Virus record (IMG/VR): IMGVR_UViG_3300028193_000173 | Coordinates: 1-38,530 of that record | Source: a virus | Length of the DNA stretch: 38,530 bases | Direction: 5' to 3' (one strand) | Shown here: positions 3,277 through 35,624 of the stretch, in pieces | Numbering within the stretch: the first letter of the stretch is position 1 | Layout of the letters: each line of letters begins with the position of its first letter | The notes under the pieces: model-generated | The model's input: the letters and a program-made list of their open reading frames with translations, nothing else | Databases searched by the model: none | What the model was told of the DNA's origin: nothing | Made by a program: the position numbers and the translations under genes

Positions 3277-3796
3277 GTGCCGGTTGTGTAAGGATCACGG
3301 TAGGGAGAAATACGAGTCTGATTTCTTCAGTGGTAAGAAGTCGCACTACCTGATAGCGAAAGAACTATCAATGGATGAAGAGGTGGTATTGACTCATATG
3401 CGTGATCACACGACTGAGGGGCAGATTATACTTCGGGCACACGAACGGGTTGATGAGGCGTTGGTACAGAACATTGAAGACATAAAACGCGAATATGCGA
3501 AGAAGGGTGCATTGAATCTCGTTGAGCGGTACGAATCGTTTGATGCTGAAGTGCGTGCGGTTGAAGACATGTTCTGGCAGTTGTATCACCACTACAAAGT
3601 ACTTGGTGATGATGGTGTACTCTCAAAGGATGATTTGCAGGCGGTGCTGGCATCACTTGAATCGGTCAGGCGGTCTGTGGATACGCTACTGAAATACCGT
3701 GATATGGGCGTCACTCACAGAGGAGATGACGAGGACGATCTGGAGCGGTGGCTCAAGCAGGGCAGTGACATTTTGAAGGCGTTGAAAGAGTCGTAA
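3254..3796 (+). CDS. probable terminase small subunit
   Basis: About 180 residues from ATG 3254; a GTG at 3266 is a possible alternative. An N-terminal C-R-L-C plus later histidines suggests a small zinc site. A helix-turn-helix-like segment follows (SHYLIAKELSMDEEVVLTH), then long amphipathic helices. This layout, and the position directly before terL with a one-base overlap, fit the DNA-recognition subunit that loads the packaging motor. The assignment rests on synteny and architecture, not clear sequence similarity. The acidic stretch near the C-terminus (DDEDDLERW) could contact the large subunit. Confidence 0.6.
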   Translation: MTSKVASKCRLCKDHGREKYESDFFSGKKSHYLIAKELSMDEEVVLTHMRDHTTEGQIILRAHERVDEALVQNIEDIKREYAKKGALNLVERYESFDAEVRAVEDMFWQLYHHYKVLGDDGVLSKDDLQAVLASLESVRRSVDTLLKYRDMGVTHRGDDEDDLERWLKQGSDILKALKES

Positions 3797-5199
3797 TGTC
3801 CGACATCGATATAAGCGGCAAATGCTTGGTATGCGGTACGGCAACTGACAATCGGTTCTGTTCTGAATGTTACAACGAGAACAACCGGGGTATTTATAAT
3901 CTGTTCGAACCGTTTCACTTCAAACCAATCGGCTGGCAGTATCGTGTGCTTGCTGATATAATCAAAAACGAGCCAGATCAGGTACTCATTAAAGCGAGAC
4001 GGTCGGCTTGTAAATCGGTCTTCGCTGATTTGTATGCGTTATTGTGCATGGTGTATCGTGGCGATTTCGTATTGTTCTCTTCCGTTTCTGATGAGAACAG
4101 TTGTGAGCATATTTCGATGCTTCGGCAGCTGGTGCATAAATCTAAAATAATCAATGAGTTGTCCGGTACTGCTGACAATAAGCACGAAATCAAACTGACT
4201 AACGGCGCTCGTGCGCTTGGTATAGCGCAATCGGAAAAGACAAAGGTTGGTTACCATCCCGATCTCAAGATTATTGATGAAGCGTCCAGGATGAAAGACT
4301 CCTTTTATTTCGCTAATCTGGCGCCCATGGGTGCTGCGAAAGGGTCACGTGAAATCATCTTATCGACGCCTTATGGTGGTTCTTCGTTTTTTGGTACGTT
4401 CTATCACGACCCGCCGGACGGTATGCGGATCTATTCGATAGAACTTAGTGAGTGTTGGTGGATCACAAAGGAGCGGTTGGAGTATGAGTATGAGATTGCG
4501 CCATCACGTGCAATCTACCAGCAGGAGTCGTTGGGCGAGTTCGTATCTGGTATCAATCGCGTATTTTCCGAAAGCGACGTCCGAGCGGCGATTGTGGATA
4601 ACATTGCTAGCCAGCGCAAACTCCTGACGATGGGTGTTGATTTCGGTCGGAAGGCGGATCACACTGCGGTTGTCGTTTATGACCATTCAACACATGAGAT
4701 AGTTAATATCCAGTTTGAAATTGCTAACCCGACTGGCACATGGAAAGATCGAATAGCACTTATTGAGCGCATCTATAATGAGTACGATATTGAGCATGTG
4801 TATGCAGATGCTACGGGGTTGGGCGATCCCATCATTGAGACACTGGCAGGTGATCTGTCAGCGAAGCTGAAAACATCACCAGAACGGGTGCTTAAGCATA
4901 CAATCACGGGCGTGGTGTTTACAAGGAAGAAGAAGCAGGAGCTGTACAATCGGCTGCAGGTACTGTTCAAATCGCAAATGATAAAATTCAAGCATCACGA
5001 TGAGCTGGAGAACGAGCTGGCAGCGTTCGTATTCCTTGATGAGTCGATGGAGAAATTGGGTTCGTATACTAGTGTGGTTCATGACGATATCCTTGATGCG
5101 TTAGCGTTAGCCGTAAGTGATGATGAATTGTTGAATGTCGGTTTTGCCGTTGGTGGTAACCAGTGGCGTGGAGGAGGTTGGAGCAGGGTACTGAGATGA
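3796..5199 (+). CDS. terL: terminase large subunit
   Basis: This is a 467-residue DNA-packaging motor with ATPase and nuclease domains. Residues 9-30 form a zinc ribbon (C-L-V-C then C-S-E-C), an uncommon extension. The Walker A equivalent is ARRSACKS near residue 70, with Cys where the glycine before the lysine is expected. Walker B is LKIIDEAS and motif III is ILSTP. The nuclease carries the three acidic clusters of the RNase H-like fold: GVDFGRKADHT, YADATGLGD and the C-terminal HDDILDALALA. The gene overlaps the portal start by ATGA. The assignment is firm. Confidence 0.93.
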   Translation: MSDIDISGKCLVCGTATDNRFCSECYNENNRGIYNLFEPFHFKPIGWQYRVLADIIKNEPDQVLIKARRSACKSVFADLYALLCMVYRGDFVLFSSVSDENSCEHISMLRQLVHKSKIINELSGTADNKHEIKLTNGARALGIAQSEKTKVGYHPDLKIIDEASRMKDSFYFANLAPMGAAKGSREIILSTPYGGSSFFGTFYHDPPDGMRIYSIELSECWWITKERLEYEYEIAPSRAIYQQESLGEFVSGINRVFSESDVRAAIVDNIASQRKLLTMGVDFGRKADHTAVVVYDHSTHEIVNIQFEIANPTGTWKDRIALIERIYNEYDIEHVYADATGLGDPIIETLAGDLSAKLKTSPERVLKHTITGVVFTRKKKQELYNRLQVLFKSQMIKFKHHDELENELAAFVFLDESMEKLGSYTSVVHDDILDALALAVSDDELLNVGFAVGGNQWRGGGWSRVLR

Positions 5200-6494
5200 A
5201 GTGGAAAGAGAGGTTGTTGGGTGTTGTACGTGATCTGAAACGCAGCACGAAAGCTACTGGTTTGGGTCGGGTGCTTACGGCAGCCAGACGGAAGACGTCA
5301 CCTTCAACTGCGTATTGGGAGACATACAAAAAGGATCCGATTGTTGGTGGCGGTGTTAACATGATAACATTCAGGATTATCGGTGAAGGCGCGGTTGTGA
5401 AGTCTGAGGATCAGGATACTGCGGACGCGCTGTCGAAATTGTTACGTGACATATTCCCCTATAAGAATCAGTTAACATTGATACGGGACACGTTGGTTTT
5501 TGGTGATGGCTGGGCTGAAATTGTGTCGTTGGCGGGTGGCGGTGTCCATGAAATATCGCCGAGGAATCCAGAAAACTTCACGATTGGTAAGGACGACGAA
5601 TACATATACTTTGATGGTAACGAGCATGTGGCGATTGATGAGAAGAACTTTGTACATTTGCAGCTGTTTGAGGATGCTGAGAGTATCGGTAAGGGCATGT
5701 CGCTCGTGCAGTTCATCAAACAGGCGAGTGACGATCGGAGACAGATATATTCTGATATTGTGAAGGCGATTAAACGGCACGGCACGCCGAAATATCATGT
5801 GAAGGTGTCGCCAGACGACAGCAACCGATACCCTGATGACGAGCAGATGCTAGCGATTGCGAACGATTTCAGGGACATCAATTCGCGTACCGAGTTGGTA
5901 ACGACTGATCAGTTTGAAGTGAAGACGGTGGATACTGGTGGTGTTCCGTCTGTACGCGATTACCAGGAGTTCCTGATGAACGAGATTTCGACAGGCATGC
6001 TGATTCCGCTTGAAGCGTTGGGTATGGGTATGAAAGGCGTTACCTATGCTACTGCGTCAGCGCGGTTACGGGAAGTTTTCAGGTACACCATCCGAGGTTA
6101 TCGCACGATTATCAGTGATGAATTAACGCATCAGCTCATTCCCGTTATCGCGCCTGGGAACGACGAGGTTGAAATCAGTTTCGAGGGATTGTTTGATGAG
6201 GACATTGCGGATACGGTTGCTTGGCTAGAAAAGTTGATGCCACAGAGCGATCCGACATTGATCTTCTCAGCGGATGAGATACGCGATCTGCTCGGCTTTG
6301 GGAACAGAGAAGATACGGAAGAGCCAGCACCATCACAACCCGAAGCTGAAGCCGGGACTGGTACTGAACAGGTGAGTGAAAGTACCAAGACAGATGAAGA
6401 TGAGGCATTTGAGAAATTCCAGCGGGGGTTTGAGAAGGCGAAACTGAACATCAAAAAAGAGGTGTTCCAGACGATAGATGCTGGCAGGCTGTAA
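5196..6494 (+). CDS. portal protein
   Basis: This 432-residue protein starts at the ATG overlapping the terL stop. An early IVGGGVNMITFRIIG segment, a DTLVFGDGWAEIV wing segment, helical stem regions (NEISTGMLIPLEALG followed by ATASARLREVF) and an acidic low-complexity tail match HK97-type portals. Portals form the dodecameric ring at the capsid vertex through which DNA passes. The position between terL and the minor head protein supports this. The tail (about 385-415, Pro/Glu/Thr rich) is probably disordered and may face the capsid interior. Confidence 0.88.
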   Translation: MKWKERLLGVVRDLKRSTKATGLGRVLTAARRKTSPSTAYWETYKKDPIVGGGVNMITFRIIGEGAVVKSEDQDTADALSKLLRDIFPYKNQLTLIRDTLVFGDGWAEIVSLAGGGVHEISPRNPENFTIGKDDEYIYFDGNEHVAIDEKNFVHLQLFEDAESIGKGMSLVQFIKQASDDRRQIYSDIVKAIKRHGTPKYHVKVSPDDSNRYPDDEQMLAIANDFRDINSRTELVTTDQFEVKTVDTGGVPSVRDYQEFLMNEISTGMLIPLEALGMGMKGVTYATASARLREVFRYTIRGYRTIISDELTHQLIPVIAPGNDEVEISFEGLFDEDIADTVAWLEKLMPQSDPTLIFSADEIRDLLGFGNREDTEEPAPSQPEAEAGTGTEQVSESTKTDEDEAFEKFQRGFEKAKLNIKKEVFQTIDAGRL

Positions 6495-6497
6495 GTT

Positions 6498-7520
6498 ATG
6501 ACATTAGCGGATATCGAGCGGGAGATTGAAAAGGAGTTCAAGACGCTTGTGGACGAGTACATTGCGCCCATGATGGAAGCGGAGTTCGTTGAGGGCATTA
6601 AGCATACTGATAAGGAGCTGCTGGTAGTTAGCTTGTTCGATCCAGACCCACTTGCCGAGGAGTTCGTTGAGAGCTACAAAACACCATTCTTCAAGGAATT
6701 GTCCGACACTACGAAGACATATCTGTTCGGAGCGATCAAAGAGACAATCGAGGAAGGCGGAACTGCTTACGATTTGTGGGCTAAAATCGAGGGAAATCGT
6801 GCGTTCACACCTTCGAGGGCTGGGTTGATTTGGCGTACCGAAATGAGCAGAGCATTTAACGCGGGTACTGATGCGAGAGCGAGAGACTTGGGCGTTAACT
6901 GGGGGTATGTAGAGTGCGCTCCCGGTGCTTGTGCGCTGTGTGCTAGTGATGACCATGTGGAGATGCCTTGGAACGACCTGCCGACACTCCCCCGGCATCC
7001 AAATTGCTTTCTTGATAGTCAAACTCCGGTTTACACTTCTCAGGGGTGGAAACCCATTGGTAAGGTTATAATTGGGGATCTGGTTCTTACACATAAGAAG
7101 CGATTCAGGAATGTTACCGATGTAATACGAATACTGCATCAAACACCGAGCGTGGTTCAGTTCACATTCGAAGATAAAGAGTATAAAACATTAGTAGTAA
7201 CATCGGAGCATCCCGTGTTAGTTAACGATCGGGAAGGTGTTACTCGGTGGAAAGCGGCTGGTGATTGCATTCTTGGTGATTCTGTGAAACGGTTGGTGAT
7301 AAATGAGTTCGTAGATAGTGGTGGAGAACAACGGCGGTTAATGAAACCATATGTATTTGTCGGTTGTCCTATACTAGCTATCGAGAAGTGGGAAGTAAAA
7401 CAACCTTGTACACTATATAATCTTTCTGTGGGAGACGATGAGTCTTATATTGCCGAAGGCGTAGTTGTTCATAACTGCGAGTGCGTTAAAATGCCAATGC
7501 GTAAAGATTTGGGGGAATAG
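6498..7520 (+). CDS. minor head protein (SPP1 gp7/Mu F type) with intein
   Basis: The primary product is 340 residues. Removing the intein (residues 170-326) leaves a protein of 183 residues. The extein has helices, then RAGLIWRTEMSRAFNAGTDA and a Cys-rich end (CAPGACALCASDDH, then LPRHPN joined to CEC). This is the layout of the SPP1 gp7/Mu gpF minor head family, whose hallmark is a closing HPN-C-x-C motif. The intein sits exactly before the conserved Cys of that motif. The gene follows the portal by three bases, as expected for this family, which helps connector assembly. Confidence 0.88.
   Translation: MTLADIEREIEKEFKTLVDEYIAPMMEAEFVEGIKHTDKELLVVSLFDPDPLAEEFVESYKTPFFKELSDTTKTYLFGAIKETIEEGGTAYDLWAKIEGNRAFTPSRAGLIWRTEMSRAFNAGTDARARDLGVNWGYVECAPGACALCASDDHVEMPWNDLPTLPRHPNCFLDSQTPVYTSQGWKPIGKVIIGDLVLTHKKRFRNVTDVIRILHQTPSVVQFTFEDKEYKTLVVTSEHPVLVNDREGVTRWKAAGDCILGDSVKRLVINEFVDSGGEQRRLMKPYVFVGCPILAIEKWEVKQPCTLYNLSVGDDESYIAEGVVVHNCECVKMPMRKDLGE
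7005..7475 (+). other. mini-intein inside the minor head protein
   Basis: The intein is 157 residues with all splicing blocks. It starts at Cys1 (CFLDSQTPVYTSQGW), has block B with T66-S-E-H69, and ends in block F/G (YIAEGVVVHN) with the terminal Asn157 followed by Cys+1 of the extein. These are the residues used for N-S shift, transesterification and Asn cyclisation. There is no LAGLIDADG or HNH block between B and F, so it is a mini-intein that cannot home by itself. It interrupts HPN-CEC, a functional motif, as inteins usually do. All key residues are present, so splicing is expected. Confidence 0.93.
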
Positions 7521-8489: not shown

Positions 8490-9205
8490 AGTACTTAATG
8501 TATATCGGGCAGGGCAGAAGCACAGCTGTTGTTGGTGATACCGTTACTGTTGCTTTGGACGGTGTTAAGAAGGTTGATAACCCAACACAACCGGAATATC
8601 CCTATTATACGGCTTGCAAGATAACTGAAACTGATGTTAAATCAGTTGATAGTGTAGTGCCGTTGCGGGAGTTGGAACGGTTATCTCAAGTGACTATCGA
8701 CGATGGCGAGGCACTGTTCCAGGTGCATGTTTCTGGTATTGCTGAGGAGAATTACAAAAGTAGACGGTACGGATCGCTATCGTTCGGCGATATGATTATG
8801 GGTTGTCCTGCTCACATCGATCTGCGGATGAAGTTCGGCGGTAGCATTGAGCAGTTCGTACTCACAGGTACGACTGTGCGGGACATTGTTGAACGGCTCT
8901 ATAGTGGTGGCGAGATAAATATCGGTACGATAATAACTAAGAACTTGGAATATTACGATGAGGGGTCGGAGCCAGTTGTTAGCGAACGCGGTGAGATCAA
9001 GCTCGTCCAGAAGAAGGTGACACATATGCTTTCGCGGTGGGTGGAGTCGGACGCACATTATAGCTATCTGGGCTATCTCAGTTCGAACACTGTTACACGC
9101 GAAGTTGTTGGTGATAGTGTTCGGTATCTGTTTGGTGATGGGCAGATAACGGGTACTTTTGCACTCCGGCAGTATGATAACGGGTGGAAGTTCGTAGTTG
9201 CATGA
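8486..9205 (+). CDS. possible phosphoesterase-like (LigD PE) fold protein
   Basis: This 239-residue soluble protein contains a stretch near residues 75-125 with ALFQVHVSG and AHIDLRMKFGGSIEQFV. The H-x-D-L-R-[LM] motif followed by a G and a hydrophobic strand resembles the core of the 3'-phosphoesterase domain of LigD, a fold that I recall near prohead proteases in some phages. The C-terminal part is strand-rich with no known motif. Catalytic activity cannot be claimed because the remaining His ligands are not clear. The stop overlaps the next ATG. Confidence 0.4.
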   Translation: MKYLMYIGQGRSTAVVGDTVTVALDGVKKVDNPTQPEYPYYTACKITETDVKSVDSVVPLRELERLSQVTIDDGEALFQVHVSGIAEENYKSRRYGSLSFGDMIMGCPAHIDLRMKFGGSIEQFVLTGTTVRDIVERLYSGGEINIGTIITKNLEYYDEGSEPVVSERGEIKLVQKKVTHMLSRWVESDAHYSYLGYLSSNTVTREVVGDSVRYLFGDGQITGTFALRQYDNGWKFVVA

Positions 9206-9812
9206 GATGCTTCATTTTGGGTAACGGGCCGTCACTGAACGATGTAGACCTCACATTGCTGAAAGACGAAGCGACATTTGGCTGTAACCGTATATACCTC
9301 AAATGGTCAGACATGGGTTATCCCGTAACTAACTATTTCTTGATTGACACTTATTTCTGCTCATCGCTGCGGCTTGAAGTGCAGCCGTATCTCGATCGTG
9401 GCGTTAAGAAGTTCTTTGTGAAGCATCACAGTGATCGGTACATGCATAGCGATAAGGTTCATGTTGGCGAGGGGTTCATTTCCGTTGGTGAGGGCATGCT
9501 CACATATGCTGCAGAGATGGGTTACGACCAGATTTACCTGCTGGGTATTGATATGGATTATAGCGGGTTGAAGCAGCGGCTCGGTGCTGAGCGGGGCGTT
9601 ACGAAACTTAACGGCGATGACCAGTGGCACTTCGACCGTTCATATTGTGATAATGGGTTTTACTACAAAAAAAACAGGGTGTAGTAGCTCATGCTATGTT
9701 TAAGGATGCGTTCAACCGATTGAGCGGTCGTGGTATCAAGATATACAACGCGAGTGGAAATGGTAAGTTAGAGTATATACCCATAGTGGACTACTATTCG
9801 CTATTCGAATGA
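9202..9812 (+). CDS. DUF115/MptE-like protein 1, frameshifted
   Basis: The zero frame from ATG 9202 gives 160 residues starting MRCFILGNGPSLNDVDL, the Rossmann-like N-terminus of DUF115/MptE-like proteins, and stops at 9684. The -1 frame continues from 9675 for another 45 codons to a TGA at 9812. That tail (FNRLSGRGIKIYNASG, then VDYYSLF) aligns with the end of the paralogue at 11032 (VFNAGVDS, then VDYESLF). The junction is eight A then C, a canonical A-AAA-AAC slippery heptamer at 9669-9675, with a small TAGC/GCTA hairpin nine bases on. The -1 stop overlaps the next start by ATGA. Full length would be about 203 residues. The function is probably in glycan synthesis, as for DUF115 proteins beside sugar genes. 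Confidence 0.75.
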
Positions 9813-10522
9813 TTGTTGGTCTGTTACTGGGGAAATCTGGCAGCCGTGAGCTACCAAACAAGAACTTGGTTGAGGTGTGCGGGAAGCCACTAATGTGCTA
9901 TCCGCTTGAGGCGCTGTCGGCATCTGCAGTTGGTCGTGTGTTTGTTTCAACGGACTCCGCACGGATTGCTGAGGTTGGGTTGGGATATGGTGCTAGTATA
10001 ATCTATCGGCCCGCTCACTTGGCGACTGACGATGCGCTGATGGCGGATGTTATATCGCATAGTTACAAGATGATTCACAATGATTTGGGGCTGAGCATTG
10101 AATTTCTGGTGCTTCTACTTTGCAACTCGCCGACTGTTACTCCAGCACTGATTGATAAGGGTATTGAGCTATTGAGGGAGAATGAAGACGCTGATTCCTG
10201 TGCCACATTTTCACGTTATAACGAGTACAACCCAGCTCGTGCGATGCGTATAGTTGATGGTCATGCGGTTGCGTTTAACTTGCTTACTAGTACGTTCAGC
10301 ACATCCAACCGTGATAGTTTGGGTGATGTCTATTTCTATGATGGTGGGATGGCCGTTATGCGTACTCGCTGTGTGATACCACGTTACGGACGGCGTCCAT
10401 ATACGTGGTTGGGCAAACGATGCATACCACTCGTTCAGGAAGGTGGATTGGATGTTGATAATGAACGTGGTCTGGTACAGGCGGAATGGTGGTTGCGGGA
10501 GAATGGTATATGTGGTCGGTGA
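9809..10522 (+). CDS. CMP-sugar synthetase (NeuA/KdsB-like)
   Basis: This 237-residue cytidylyltransferase is of the acylneuraminate type. The nucleotide-binding loop is LLLGKSGSRELPNKNL, in place of the usual ARxGSKxxxxKN. FVSTDSARIAE, IIYRPAHLATDDA and LLLCNSPTVTP, the CTP/sugar-binding segment with a final D-N-E-R, are all present. It would activate a nonulosonate or related acid sugar with CTP. It is coupled by ATGA to the frameshifted DUF115 gene and overlaps the SGNH gene, so it belongs to the glycan operon. The exact sugar is unknown. Confidence 0.85.
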   Translation: MIVGLLLGKSGSRELPNKNLVEVCGKPLMCYPLEALSASAVGRVFVSTDSARIAEVGLGYGASIIYRPAHLATDDALMADVISHSYKMIHNDLGLSIEFLVLLLCNSPTVTPALIDKGIELLRENEDADSCATFSRYNEYNPARAMRIVDGHAVAFNLLTSTFSTSNRDSLGDVYFYDGGMAVMRTRCVIPRYGRRPYTWLGKRCIPLVQEGGLDVDNERGLVQAEWWLRENGICGR

Positions 10523-11045
10523 CAGCCATGCACGGGAACTGTTCGCGGGTCATAACGAGTACGATAATCACAAGGTTGGTACATGGGCTGCGTTCAGATT
10601 GCACACCCACCACGAAGAGTTTGTGAGGCATCTGAACGGGCATGAACACGATAAAATCATTGTCGTATTTGGTGAGATAGATGTGCGTGAGCATATAGTG
10701 GATCAAGCGAAAAAGCAGAACCGAACGACAGACGAATTGGTAGATGATACTGCGCTCTCGTTCGTTGAATACATCTCATCGTTATGTTACGATATTAGCA
10801 TATTGAGTGTCCCTCCAACTGGTGATGGTGATGACGACAAGGTATTCAGAGGTACATACGAGGAGCGGAAACATATTACCGAGCGGTTGAATGCACGATA
10901 TGAGTACTATTGCGGTCGATTTAATGTTCCGTTCGTTAATGTCTACAAATATTTAGTTGATGAGAACGGTGATAGACGCAAGGAGCTGGTGGTTGATCAG
11001 GTGCATTTAGGTTGCATTGCGGACATAATAAATGACCGAAGATAG
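10503..11045 (+). CDS. SGNH/GDSL hydrolase
   Basis: About 180 residues from ATG 10503. The N-terminus MVYVVGDSHAREL is SGNH block I with the catalytic Ser. VVFGEIDVRE is the GxND-like oxyanion block, and the C-terminal DQVHLG supplies the D-x-x-H pair. Such enzymes add or remove acyl groups, often acetyl on sugars. No signal peptide is visible, so it acts inside the cell, probably on a glycan precursor. It overlaps the preceding CMP-sugar synthetase by 20 bases and the following DUF115 gene by 14. Confidence 0.8.
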   Translation: MVYVVGDSHARELFAGHNEYDNHKVGTWAAFRLHTHHEEFVRHLNGHEHDKIIVVFGEIDVREHIVDQAKKQNRTTDELVDDTALSFVEYISSLCYDISILSVPPTGDGDDDKVFRGTYEERKHITERLNARYEYYCGRFNVPFVNVYKYLVDENGDRRKELVVDQVHLGCIADIINDRR

Positions 11046-11754
11046 AGTTCACGGAATGCGGGATCTGCTAGGGCGATATTACCACAAACACTGTGGTGAA
11101 CGGTGTTTCGTTTTAGGTAATGGGCCGTCGTTAAACAAACTCGATCTATCAAAGTTGTCTGATGAGTGGTTGTTCGGGTGCAACTGTATTTACCTGAAAC
11201 GCGACGAGTTGGAACGTGGCGTTGACTACTACTTCTTGGTAGATACGATCTTGGCGCCGCAAATACAGCATGAAGTGAACGAATATTTGTCACATGGCGA
11301 TATTAAGGTGCTGTTTCTGCATAGTGCCTATACCGATATCATTCATGATAATGGTGCAGATGTGATAGTTAGCCAGTGGAGTAATGTCGTTCAGTCTTTT
11401 AGTAATACAGGCACACTGATGGTGATTATTGCAGCGTATATGGGGTTCAATCCAGTCTATATGATTGGTATGGATGCGAACTATGACGGTATCGTAGATG
11501 GTTCACGACCTATAAGAAGGAATGTTCATACGCTCATCGGTGATGACCAGTGGCATTTCGATCCTAATTACTCACGAAAACCCGATGGGACGTCTATTGA
11601 GTTCATATTTGGTGTGGATGAAGCAAGTCTCATGTTAGCAGGATTTGATCGGGCATACGGTATAGCGGCTGGTTGTGGGTGCAGTGTATTCAATGCTGGT
11701 GTAGATAGCCGGTTACAGATTTTTGAGAAAGTGGATTATGAGTCGTTATTCTGA
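11032..11754 (+). CDS. DUF115/MptE-like protein 2
   Basis: A 240-residue, intact member of the DUF115/MptE-like family. CFVLGNGPSLNKLDL near residue 25 is the glycine-rich loop. FGCNCIYL, YYFLVDT and MIGMDANYDG are the following strands. GDDQWHFDPNYS is shared with the copy at 9202, and the end VDYESLF is also shared. Cellular relatives include 6-hydroxymethyl-pterin pyrophosphokinase (MptE) and glycosylation-associated proteins; the surrounding genes favour a glycan role here. It is the best template for judging the frameshift in the first copy. Confidence 0.8.
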   Translation: MTEDRVHGMRDLLGRYYHKHCGERCFVLGNGPSLNKLDLSKLSDEWLFGCNCIYLKRDELERGVDYYFLVDTILAPQIQHEVNEYLSHGDIKVLFLHSAYTDIIHDNGADVIVSQWSNVVQSFSNTGTLMVIIAAYMGFNPVYMIGMDANYDGIVDGSRPIRRNVHTLIGDDQWHFDPNYSRKPDGTSIEFIFGVDEASLMLAGFDRAYGIAAGCGCSVFNAGVDSRLQIFEKVDYESLF

Positions 11755-12407
11755 TGAAGAAAAAGAACGCTATAGTTACAGGTGCCAGTCGCGGGATTGG
11801 CAAGCAAATCGCTGATGATCTGGAAGCTGGTGGGGTTAACGTTTTGCGGTGCGATTCCAGCAATGTTAATTTGTTACAGGATGATTTTGACATCTTTGAA
11901 TCTCTTGAGCGGCTGTTGGATGGGTTAGAAGATAAAAGCATACATATTCTTGTGAACAACGCTGGTATTTCAACTGGTTGCGATGTTGATGTTTTACAGG
12001 TCAATTTGAGAGCACCGGATATACTAGTGACGTTCTTAAAACCTTACTTGACCGATGGTGCTCGTATCGTCAATATCGGCTCGGTCTACGGTTCTGTTAC
12101 TGAGATTGGTCGGGGGATGTACTCGGCATCCAAAGCTGGCATATCGTCACTTACGAGAACATTGGCACTCGAACTCGCGGATAGGAGCATTCTTGTGAAT
12201 TGTGTCGCTCCAGGGTTCACTGACACGGACATGACCAGAACACGGTTGGGTGAACGGGGCATGACAGAAAAGAGGCAGCAAATACCACTCGGTAGGTTGG
12301 CAACGCCTAAAGACATCTCAAATGTGGTGTTGTTCCTTTGTTCTGAATCAAACACATACATTACGGGGACGACGATTCTGGTCGATGGCGGTTACGTATT
12401 GCGATGA
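11754..12407 (+). CDS. short-chain dehydrogenase/reductase
   Basis: A 217-residue classical SDR. TGASRGIG binds NAD(P), NNAG is the stabilising motif, GSVY is the catalytic serine region, YSASK carries the catalytic Tyr and Lys, and LVDGGYVLR is the usual end. It would oxidise or reduce a hydroxyl/keto group on a sugar or cyclitol, given its neighbours. It is FabG-like in sequence, but an acyl-ACP role is unlikely in an archaeal virus. The start and stop both overlap neighbours by ATGA. Confidence 0.9.
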   Translation: MKKKNAIVTGASRGIGKQIADDLEAGGVNVLRCDSSNVNLLQDDFDIFESLERLLDGLEDKSIHILVNNAGISTGCDVDVLQVNLRAPDILVTFLKPYLTDGARIVNIGSVYGSVTEIGRGMYSASKAGISSLTRTLALELADRSILVNCVAPGFTDTDMTRTRLGERGMTEKRQQIPLGRLATPKDISNVVLFLCSESNTYITGTTILVDGGYVLR

Positions 12408-13408
12408 GTGAATTGTTTGCAACTGTTAAGACACGCGTAATCTCGTGTGAGGGTAATGCTTATAAGGTCTTCTTTGGCGACGCAAATGAAGCGCTGGCGA
12501 AGTACGGGTTGATGACTGTTTATCTGGTAGATTCAGAACTCAAAGAGTTAGAAATTGATAGTCAGAACATTATATACATAAATGCTAAGGAGATTAGCAA
12601 GACGTATTCCGCGATAGGAGTTACTATTGGGTTCATCTTACAGACCGGAATTAGAAGGAATTGGAAACTCGTTGCCATTGGTGGTGGCGTGATCCAGGAC
12701 GTTGCGGGGTTCATCGCATCGATATTATTCAGGGGTGTCAAGTGGGATTACTACCCGACAACGCTCTTGGCGCAGGCGGATAGTTGCATCGGGTCAAAGA
12801 CATCCATTAACGTTGATGGCTTCAAGAATCTGGTTGGTACGTTCTATCCACCTGAGCGAGTTGTAATAGATACAAAATTCCTAGAGACGTTGCCTTACAG
12901 TGCGGTTGTCTCTGGTATGGGCGAGATAGTCAAGTACCATATTCTTAATGGCGATTACAATCTGGTCAGCGAGGATTATGAAGAGTTGATCAAGTACTGT
13001 CTAAGGGTGAAGATGCCGTATATCGAGCAGGACGAATTTGATAGCGGGCTACGAAGATGCTTAAACTACGGGCATACGTTTGGGCATGCGCTTGAGACCG
13101 TTTCTGGTTATATGATACCGCATGGACAAGCAGTTCTGGCTGGTATGGATATTGCTAATTACATATCCTTCACACTCGGTCTTCTTTCTAAGGAAACATA
13201 CCGGAAGGTTCGCGGGTTCATTGCACCGCATATACTAGTACCGTACGATGCTGATACCGCTGCTATGCTCAAGGCGCTTGAAATGGATAAGAAGAATACT
13301 AATGGTGAACTAACCTGTATCTTATTGACGGATACGGGCATTAAAGAGACATGGTTGAGTTACAGTATGGTTAGCGGGTTGTTAGATGGATATAGAGCAG
13401 CAACGTAA
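12404..13408 (+). CDS. dehydroquinate-synthase-like sugar phosphate cyclase
   Basis: A 334-residue member of the AroB superfamily. IGGGVIQDVAGF binds NAD. PTTLLAQADSCIGSKTSIN then KNLVGTFYPP form the substrate region. GMGEIVKYH, GHTFGHALE and PHGQAV supply the Glu-His-His metal site. The NAD-dependent cyclases of this family make dehydroquinate, 2-deoxy-scyllo-inosose or valiolone-type cyclitols from different sugar phosphates. Lack of other shikimate genes and the sugar-gene context argue against dehydroquinate. With GmhA-like and transaldolase genes present, a heptulose phosphate substrate is attractive but not proven. Confidence 0.87.
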   Translation: MSELFATVKTRVISCEGNAYKVFFGDANEALAKYGLMTVYLVDSELKELEIDSQNIIYINAKEISKTYSAIGVTIGFILQTGIRRNWKLVAIGGGVIQDVAGFIASILFRGVKWDYYPTTLLAQADSCIGSKTSINVDGFKNLVGTFYPPERVVIDTKFLETLPYSAVVSGMGEIVKYHILNGDYNLVSEDYEELIKYCLRVKMPYIEQDEFDSGLRRCLNYGHTFGHALETVSGYMIPHGQAVLAGMDIANYISFTLGLLSKETYRKVRGFIAPHILVPYDADTAAMLKALEMDKKNTNGELTCILLTDTGIKETWLSYSMVSGLLDGYRAAT

Positions 13409-30235: not shown

Positions 30236-31813
30236 ATGATACAAGAATTAACGATATTGAACGGGCATGTGTTATCGGCGCTCGCTACTATCCCGAACGA
30301 TACGGTTGATCTTATCGTGACTTCGCCACCGTACTGGGGCTTACGCGATTATGGCGAAGAAACCGTGACCGTATGGGATGGCGATCCTGAGTGCGAGCAC
30401 GAATGGAGTGATGACATATTTAAAAAACAATCTGGTGGCACAACAAAAGTAATCGTGACACAAAATACCGATGCAAGAATCCATTATGATGTTAAATCTA
30501 ACTTCTGCTCCAAATGCGGCGCGTGGCGCGGTCAGCTTGGCTTAGGACCTTCACTGGAACTCTACATCAAACACCTGCTACAGATAACCGCAGAACTGAA
30601 GCGCGTGCTGAAACCAACGGGTGTGCTGTTCTGGAATCATGGCGATAGTTACGGTGGCAGTTGGCAGAATTATGGGAATACCGAATATTTCAAACGCGGT
30701 GATTCTGTAAAATCTTATCCCGTTACGATGAGCGCAACGGCCAAGGGCATGTGCCTTCAGAACTACCGCTTGGTGCTGCGAATGGTGGACGAGCAGGGTT
30801 GGATACTACGGAACGCGGTAATCTGGAACAAAACCAACCACATGCCGAGTTCGGTGAAGGACAGATTCACGAACGGGTACGAGCCGATCTTCATGCTCAC
30901 GAAGAGCAACAAAACCGCTTACTACTGGAACGAAAAGACGGGCTTGATGGCAGATAGACCACCTGTAGAGCGTATAGAAGGCAGAGATTGGGAATGGCGC
31001 AGGAAGAAAGTGCCAGTTTCTGAAAGCGGTGCTAACATTGGGGATTTCAATAAAGAGCCATACAAGAATAACAACCCACATCTTTTACGCCTTGATACCG
31101 AAGAGGGCGAGTTGTTCAAATACTCGTTCTGGAACTCGTTTGACTATTGGTTCGATCTGGATGCGGTGCGTGAACCGCACAAGCGAGTTTGGGATGAAAC
31201 TAACGACGGGACTTTCGGTGCACGAACTGTAAAGGGGGGAAAGGATGTGGTACTTGGAGGGACATACAATCACAAAGGCGAATACCCACTCCCTAACCCA
31301 TCAGGCAAGAATCCTAGCGATGTCTGGACAATGAACACACAGCCGTTCCCCGATGCGCACTTCGCGGTCTTCCCGGAAGAGCTGCCGGAACGCTGCATCA
31401 AGTGTGGCTGCCCGCGTGAAATCTGTACGCAGTGCGGAAAGGCACGGGTACGGATAACTGAACGAGATTCGCCTGATGAACACATAAGGAGACTAGATCA
31501 AGATAGGAAGATAAGAGGGGCTGGATTTGAATATGTCGAAGGTCTGGGCGGGCAACGTCATCAGGACTGGTTAAATTCCCATCCACAACAGACAATCGGC
31601 TGGACGACCTGCTCATGTGCGAACCCCGAATATCGCCCTGGTATCGTGCTCGATCCGTTCTTAGGCAGTGGCACGACCATGAAGGTTGCACGCAGGCTCG
31701 GCATGTCCTGTATCGGGATCGAGATCAGTCCGAAATACGTGTCGATGGCGAAACGCGAAGTTGGCTGGAACGAGGGGCTGTTTGGAATTGAGTTCCGTGA
31801 ATTTCTGCTTTAA
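30236..31813 (+). CDS. DNA methyltransferase (N4-cytosine/N6-adenine)
   Basis: A 525-residue methyltransferase of the beta-class order. The catalytic TSPPYWGLRDYG is near residue 30, and the SAM-binding DPFLGSGTTMKVARRLG is near the C-terminus, followed by CIGIEISPKY. TSPPY is more frequent in N4-cytosine enzymes, but N6-adenine cannot be excluded. Two Cys-rich inserts (FCSKCGAW; RCIKCGCPREICTQCGK) are likely zinc knuckles. No restriction enzyme lies beside it, so it is probably an orphan enzyme protecting viral DNA from host restriction or marking it for packaging. Confidence 0.9.
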   Translation: MIQELTILNGHVLSALATIPNDTVDLIVTSPPYWGLRDYGEETVTVWDGDPECEHEWSDDIFKKQSGGTTKVIVTQNTDARIHYDVKSNFCSKCGAWRGQLGLGPSLELYIKHLLQITAELKRVLKPTGVLFWNHGDSYGGSWQNYGNTEYFKRGDSVKSYPVTMSATAKGMCLQNYRLVLRMVDEQGWILRNAVIWNKTNHMPSSVKDRFTNGYEPIFMLTKSNKTAYYWNEKTGLMADRPPVERIEGRDWEWRRKKVPVSESGANIGDFNKEPYKNNNPHLLRLDTEEGELFKYSFWNSFDYWFDLDAVREPHKRVWDETNDGTFGARTVKGGKDVVLGGTYNHKGEYPLPNPSGKNPSDVWTMNTQPFPDAHFAVFPEELPERCIKCGCPREICTQCGKARVRITERDSPDEHIRRLDQDRKIRGAGFEYVEGLGGQRHQDWLNSHPQQTIGWTTCSCANPEYRPGIVLDPFLGSGTTMKVARRLGMSCIGIEISPKYVSMAKREVGWNEGLFGIEFREFLL

Positions 31814-34646: not shown

Positions 34647-35624
34647 ATGTCTCAACTTGCGAGAATGTTGGATTACATTCGTACCAGTGACGGGCAGGAA
34701 CGCGAGCGTAAGCTCAGTAAGATAGCGCATGTCGTTGAGGTACGTGTTGGCGCAGGTGAAGCGGACAGGGTACGTAAACTGCTTATGGGTGAGGGTTCGG
34801 ACAGCACCACGCTGATCCAGGAAGAAGTGCATAAGACGATCTTGGAGGGTGCGGAACCCGCTCAGTGTATGCGTAACGTACTGCCGAAAATCACTTGCAA
34901 GACCAGCTCGTTACGGTACGTTACAGGCGGTACAGCTGGTTATGCAGATGAAGTGAGCGAGGGCGCGGAGATACCGATCCATAACACGAGCTTCTCGAAG
35001 ACCGACTTCGTCATCAAGAAGATCGGTGTGCGACCGGTGATCACACGCGAACTAGTAGAGGACGGGCTGTTTGATGCGGTCGAGCACGAACTGCGCAAAT
35101 CAGGTGTGCGGATGGAGAACAAGTTGAACCGTGACGCACTCGCGGCAGTTATCGGTACGAGCGCGCAGAACCAGAACGCGTCTACAGACGACCTCGCGCA
35201 TGTGACTGATCTCACAGACGCACGTGCGAAAATATGCTCAGCGAACTTCCATCCGGATAAGTTCGTGATGCATCCCGAGTACGAGGGTTCGCTCCTGAAG
35301 GATACCAACCTGGTCTATGCGAACTACGCAGGCGGCTCTGAAGCTTTGCGCAAAGGCACAGTCGGTACTACACTCGTCGGTTTGAAACCCTACGTGTGCG
35401 GTGTTACCACGGCGAACGGTTCATGGGACTTCAGCGGTACTGCGGGTGATGTCGGTGCGGTAGTCTTGGACTCGCTGAATGCGGGTGCGATTGCGATCCG
35501 GCAGGACATCAAAGTAGAAGAGTACGATGATGTCATTCACGATCTGGTCGGTATGGCGATCACTATGCGGTACGATGTCAAAGCGTTGGAGAATTACGCA
35601 GCCTGCAAGATCAGCTGCCAGTAG
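34647..35624 (+). CDS. major capsid protein (HK97 fold)
   Basis: A 325-residue protein with strong GGAGG before the ATG, as expected for the most abundant product. An N-terminal helical region (1-60) is followed by YADEVSEGAEIPIHNTSFSK, KKIGVRPVITRELVEDGLF (E-loop and spine helix), then FVMHPEYEGSLLKDT and VGLKPYVCGVTTANG in the P and A domains. These are hallmarks of HK97-type capsid proteins. The N-terminus (about 90 residues) could be the part removed by a prohead protease. It is the anchor for the second head module. Confidence 0.88.
   Translation: MSQLARMLDYIRTSDGQERERKLSKIAHVVEVRVGAGEADRVRKLLMGEGSDSTTLIQEEVHKTILEGAEPAQCMRNVLPKITCKTSSLRYVTGGTAGYADEVSEGAEIPIHNTSFSKTDFVIKKIGVRPVITRELVEDGLFDAVEHELRKSGVRMENKLNRDALAAVIGTSAQNQNASTDDLAHVTDLTDARAKICSANFHPDKFVMHPEYEGSLLKDTNLVYANYAGGSEALRKGTVGTTLVGLKPYVCGVTTANGSWDFSGTAGDVGAVVLDSLNAGAIAIRQDIKVEEYDDVIHDLVGMAITMRYDVKALENYAACKISCQ

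Follow-up and report, generated by a model that had tools for sequence, protein, structure and literature searches.

What is a stop-free stretch of 157 codons doing inside the gene for a minor head protein of a tailed virus, where did it come from, and does its position within a conserved motif carry any meaning for head assembly? We considered these questions for the window, by which we mean the full 38,530-nt viral record IMGVR_UViG_3300028193_000173 (positions 1 to 38,530), in which the stretch occupies positions 7005 to 7475. We are highly confident that it encodes a cis-splicing mini-intein of the class 1 type, which has most likely lost an endonuclease and belongs to a large family of phage inteins inserted at the same site.

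An insert with intein motifs in a head protein gene

The interrupted gene (6498 to 7520, plus strand, as for all features below) encodes a 340-aa precursor, including the intein, of a MuF-type minor head protein. Its translation reads as an N-extein of 169 aa (6498 to 7004), which contains a CxxC motif (C145, C148) and ends in H167-P-N169, followed by the insert (7005 to 7475; CFLDSQTPVYT...VVVHN), which is in frame and covers residues 170 to 326, and by a C-extein of 14 aa (7476 to 7517), CECVKMPMRKDLGE, which begins with Cys+1. The predicted masses are 38.5 kDa for the precursor, 17.8 kDa for the intein and 20.7 kDa for the spliced product, the last in agreement with the roughly 20 kDa expected in the original prediction.

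The N-terminal splicing region of the insert (intein residues 1-94; 7005 to 7286) carries Cys1 and T66-S-E-H69, the sole TxxH of the intein, and the C-terminal splicing region (residues 116-157; 7350 to 7475) ends in H156-N157, directly before Cys+1, which is the first residue of CEC. Between them lies a short linker (residues 95-115; 7287 to 7349), at the place where relatives hold about 250 residues with a nuclease of the DUF559/Vsr type. The TIGR01443 profile (intein_Cterm) scored above its curated cutoff. The Pfam Intein_splicing profile matched only the C-terminal part, below its cutoff (E 3e-5), and this match was confined to the head protein ORF, with no other in the whole record. Furthermore, an HMM built from 18 other same-site mini-inteins, from which the window was left out, recovered the insert at E 4.8e-47 (154.8 bits) as the sole matching ORF among 497 six-frame segments, while the best of 1000 shuffles of the intein reached 8.2 bits. 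The proposal of an intein at exactly these coordinates, with these splice residues, is thus borne out.

Likewise, an AlphaFold model (19 precursors; pLDDT 75, pTM 0.52) gave values of mostly 80-96 for the intein blocks outside the linker, which fell below 50, with low pLDDT at residues 272-282. The top 50 PDB matches to the model in Foldseek were inteins and related HINT domains, among them a BIL2 domain (E 7e-10), the PhoCDC21-1 intein (E 1.7e-9) and the gp41-1 intein (E 3e-9), with Ssp DnaB, Mtu RecA and hedgehog also among the top matches. The gp41-1 intein, from a cyanophage helicase, was in addition the best PDB sequence match, a weak one (E 0.04). It resembles the window intein in its HINT fold and phage origin, but it is naturally split, whereas the window intein lies in one continuous ORF.

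The host protein and its uninterrupted homologues

The head protein extein matched phrog_2468 (head morphogenesis) at E 1.4e-11 over residues 4-131. The Pfam Phage_Mu_F profile stayed below its cutoff for the window protein (15.7 vs 29.6 bits) and exceeded it in six same-site relatives (records L025, L138, L127, L028, L092 and L038). The order of the genes, with the terminase large subunit (3796 to 5199) and the portal protein (5163 to 6494), both assigned from profile matches, preceding the MuF gene (6498 to 7520), is that of MuF/SPP1 gp7 minor head proteins.

Joining the exteins yields a 183-aa protein, and its tblastn alignments to phage proteins are gap-free at the splice point. At the position of the junction, uninterrupted head proteins read IPAHPRCRC in cyanophage PSS2, AHPECRC in Brevundimonas phage Strzyga, VHPRCRC in Arthrobacter phage Sonali and MHPNCRC in Streptococcus phage Javan573. 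Since HP(N/R/E)CxC is contiguous in these insert-free homologues, the insert is not a normal domain of the head protein, and this reading, against which the original prediction was to be checked, is ruled out. Profiles, fold, empty sites and dozens of same-site relatives all agree on a mini-intein that splits HPN-C-x-C in a MuF-type head protein; the narrower label of SPP1 gp7-type holds at the level of the MuF superfamily, as no close SPP1 match was obtained. Searches of viral_contigs with the head protein of the window, with the N-extein and with the terminase gave no close relatives, so that no closely related virus with an empty site was seen.

The insert hence combines the nucleophile, the block B TxxH, His-Asn with Cys+1, the HINT fold, contiguous intein-free homologues and the absence of an endonuclease, as in class 1 mini-inteins.

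A frequent intein site in phages

A degenerate splice-junction pattern, Y-x-A-x-G-x-x-V-H-N↓C-x-C (the arrow marks the splice point; about 41 bits, with the estimated chance matches in the collection well under one), was present in at least 119 viral contigs of viral_contigs and in 6 genome contigs. Among the matches listed, 100 had a located N-junction, for which at least 60 residues upstream were demanded; His was found at -3 in 77 of them and HP in 69, counts that are approximate because the junction finder is heuristic. These 77 same-site members, among the matches listed, comprise 61 distinct sequences, with inteins of less than 200 aa in 20, 200-329 aa in 23 and at least 330 aa in 34.

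Cultured phages matched as well, namely the Gordonia phages Barsten, Lennon, Nordenberg, Sitar, SchottB and Thing3 and the Vibrio phages 1.266.O and 1.265.O, where the annotation of the matching protein is minor capsid, head morphogenesis or hint domain. The junction was read directly in four of them (Barsten, Lennon, 1.266.O and 1.265.O), none of whose proteins is annotated as an intein. As in the window, the intein lies directly before the C-R-C/S motif of a head-region protein, but it is longer (275 and 340 aa) and falls in different tree clades. Two further phage matches were set aside, H7 because its intein interrupts a DNA methyltransferase-like protein rather than a head protein, and H15 for want of a long ORF across the match. 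A separate observation concerns the human fecal phage MT835926.1 (L005:2845-4920), where an intein interrupts a cytosine-methyltransferase-like protein (GGFPC↓F...HN↓CQPFSVAG) in a gene that reads as two open segments in one frame.

Among uncultivated viruses, inteins accordingly occur often at the conserved motif in the C-terminal part of MuF head proteins, and the earlier view that an intein is unusual in a morphogenesis protein is not supported. The published record points the same way, with inteins known in the portal proteins of mycobacteriophages and with a Mu-F head protein whose intein lacks an endonuclease, for which Ward et al. (2004; PMC517821) proposed regulated head assembly. The latter intein, in the Mu-F (gp30-like) protein of a Mu-like prophage of Methylococcus capsulatus Bath, is like ours in residing in a MuF head-assembly protein without a recognizable endonuclease. 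It differs in having been likened by Ward et al. to archaeal IF-2 inteins (PMC517821), and our comparison with it covers the host protein and the missing endonuclease.

In the open-access literature searched, we found no paper on the widespread MuF-site family and its DUF559/Vsr nuclease, which does not exclude that one exists. No title or abstract there on inteins with Vsr nucleases touched the MuF site, a homing-endonuclease review mentions neither VSR nor phage, and the InBase-style name MupF is absent from the papers searched. The window intein thus looks real and intact, at a site that is common in phages and with a comparable head-protein intein in print since 2004. The copy is ordinary within its family, and the widespread same-site family with its DUF559/Vsr nuclease is of greater interest.

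Relatives with a nuclease domain and the origin of the mini-intein

The 388-aa intein of IMG/VR record L025 is inserted at the same HP(N)↓CxC site but has kept a DUF559/Vsr nuclease (DUF559 at E 6e-12, plus Vsr). The window intein aligns to it in two blocks, residues 1-94 at 58% and residues 116-157 at 60% identity, and about 250 residues of the longer intein are missing, as expected from the earlier statement that the endonuclease block is lacking. Because of this two-block match to a nuclease-carrying relative, the window intein is best read as a derivative that arose by endonuclease loss.

The usual nuclease domain of inteins is of the LAGLIDADG type, which is replaced by the DUF559/Vsr type in the full-length inteins at the MuF site. 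The extra residues of the L025, L138 and L119 inteins match DUF559 and MTES_1575, and Vsr profiles in two of the three. We observed that these full-length inteins (L025:4002-5165, L138:3121-4281 and L119:3719-4888) contain a zinc-ribbon-like segment together with the DUF559/Vsr/MTES_1575-type nuclease. An E[CV]DGxxWH motif was seen in 31 of the 77 site members among the matches listed.

Inteins of 173 aa (L092) and 193 aa (L038) have kept the zinc-ribbon stub and lost the nuclease. Such a zinc-ribbon-like stub is present in the 173-193 aa inteins of L092:3083-4249, L038:3959-5221 and L072:5842-7089, which are apparent intermediates of the loss, and the L038 intein is sister to the full-length L019 intein.

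In a tree of the splicing blocks of 66 inteins, with changes counted without a root, the mini and full-length states require 15 changes, at least 8 of them forced by well-supported branches. The window intein nests in a clade of 18 full-length and 7 mini-inteins with 97/89 support. The mini-inteins of IMG/VR records L028 and L127 (147-148 aa) occupy the same HP(N)↓CxC site and share PRHPN↓CFLD.Q with the window, but they group with the full-length L069 intein, apart from the window, and therefore look like a separate nuclease loss. Endonuclease-loss derivatives have thus arisen repeatedly at the MuF site, where full-length, degrading and mini forms occur side by side and provide a good natural series for studying the loss of a homing nuclease. 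As the tree is unrooted, the preference for loss over gain rests on established knowledge and on the stub intermediates, and it is from these that we infer the direction from full-length to mini for the window copy. Its ancestor within this large phage family would most likely have been a homing form of about 385 aa with a DUF559/Vsr-type endonuclease that was subsequently lost.

The G+C content of the intein is 0.42 (0.34 at third positions) vs 0.515 (0.58) in the N-extein and 0.49 (0.55) in the portal gene, which is consistent with a later acquisition, although no proof of it.

Splicing and its possible control

Standard class 1 cis-splicing is by far the likeliest fate of the precursor, and we infer from its residues that it does splice. 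After translation, the HINT fold would initiate an N-to-S acyl shift at Cys1, followed by transthioesterification onto Cys+1 and by cyclisation of Asn157, aided by His156. A final S-to-N shift would restore the conserved HPN-CEC motif in a 183-aa MuF-type minor head protein. The mini-intein most likely persists because the head protein depends on accurate splicing.

In a less probable, indeed unlikely, scenario, head assembly would be conditional because redox state or a metal, for instance zinc, controls splicing. The intein splits CxxC...HPN↓CxC, in which the CxxC and HPN of the N-extein and the CxC of the C-extein may constitute a metal site. C145, C148, H167, C327 and C329 are conserved in the mini-intein alignment, and the upstream CxxC is present in 65 of the 77 same-site relatives with His at -3 among the matches listed. 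Before splicing, Cys1 occupies the later place of Cys+1, and a metal bound by the precursor could restrain the reaction. Inhibition by zinc is reported for the mycobacterial DnaB intein (PMC7360933), and regulated head morphogenesis was put forward for a MuF intein by Ward et al. (PMC517821). On the other hand, metal binding by the CxxC...HPNCxC motif is putative, and a zinc effect on the window intein is proposed by analogy.

The redox version is less specific than the zinc effect, for which the splitting of a possibly metal-binding motif can be cited. Most inteins have cysteine nucleophiles, so that these make a weak argument for redox control. Inteins also tend to lie in conserved motifs anyway, so that the location needs no regulatory reason. 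At the sequence level, the remaining cysteines of the window intein are at 88, 121 and 135, and Cys is absent from -3 to -1 in the window (HPN) and in all 77 same-site relatives among the matches listed, which leaves Cys1 with no partner there for a short-range disulfide trap. The earlier suggestion of redox-conditional head assembly hence finds no specific support. Were splicing nevertheless metal- or redox-dependent, virion assembly would be subject to a post-translational checkpoint, as was already suggested in 2004. Slightly more doubtful still is a view of the MuF HPN↓CxC site as a hot spot of repeated DUF559/Vsr nuclease loss, with splicing retained because it gates a metal-binding cluster for head assembly, as a conserved metal- or redox-sensitive checkpoint.

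It is very improbable that the insert has decayed or become unable to splice, with the unspliced precursor serving as a head protein of larger size or with the gene no longer needed. The Pfam Intein_splicing score below cutoff could suggest decay, but all splice residues are intact, the frame is open and the blocks are 58-60% identical to those of relatives; furthermore, four pairs of related inteins, drawn from the relatives, are under purifying selection, with dN/dS values near 0.1-0.3 across the parts of the intein that align. Least credible of all is a cleaving rather than splicing domain of the bacterial intein-like (BIL) or hedgehog type, despite the BIL2 and hedgehog HINT domains among the top fold matches, since Cys+1 and the CxC flank are conserved in all 19 aligned relatives and the joined motif is present in uninterrupted homologues. 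A-type BIL domains have a C-terminal flank without a conserved Cys, Ser or Thr at +1, and the same evidence rules them out here. Cis-splicing of an intact mini-intein remains our preferred reading.

Genomic context

No RNA structure was detected at the N-junction (z 0.45). The window terminase (3796 to 5199) has at best 27% identity to any record, and has haloarchaeal tailed viruses as well as Thermus/Meiothermus phages among its matches; an archaeal host is therefore possible. A second intein was suspected in the DNA methyltransferase gene at 30236 to 31813 because of a long alignment gap, but reading of the gene showed no intein blocks; the protein has about 285 extra residues compared with the PHROG 67 profile. 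Following the head genes, a run of genes at 9184 to 13408 has the look, from its translations, of a set for the metabolism of sugars or nucleotide sugars. It includes a CMP-sugar-synthetase-like gene and a short-chain dehydrogenase, and the ORFs at 9184 and 11032 are related to each other. The usual phage gene order is portal, MuF and major capsid protein (MCP), but the major head protein of the window, at 34647 to 35624, follows the portal gene only after about 28 kb and lies close to the right-hand end of the record.
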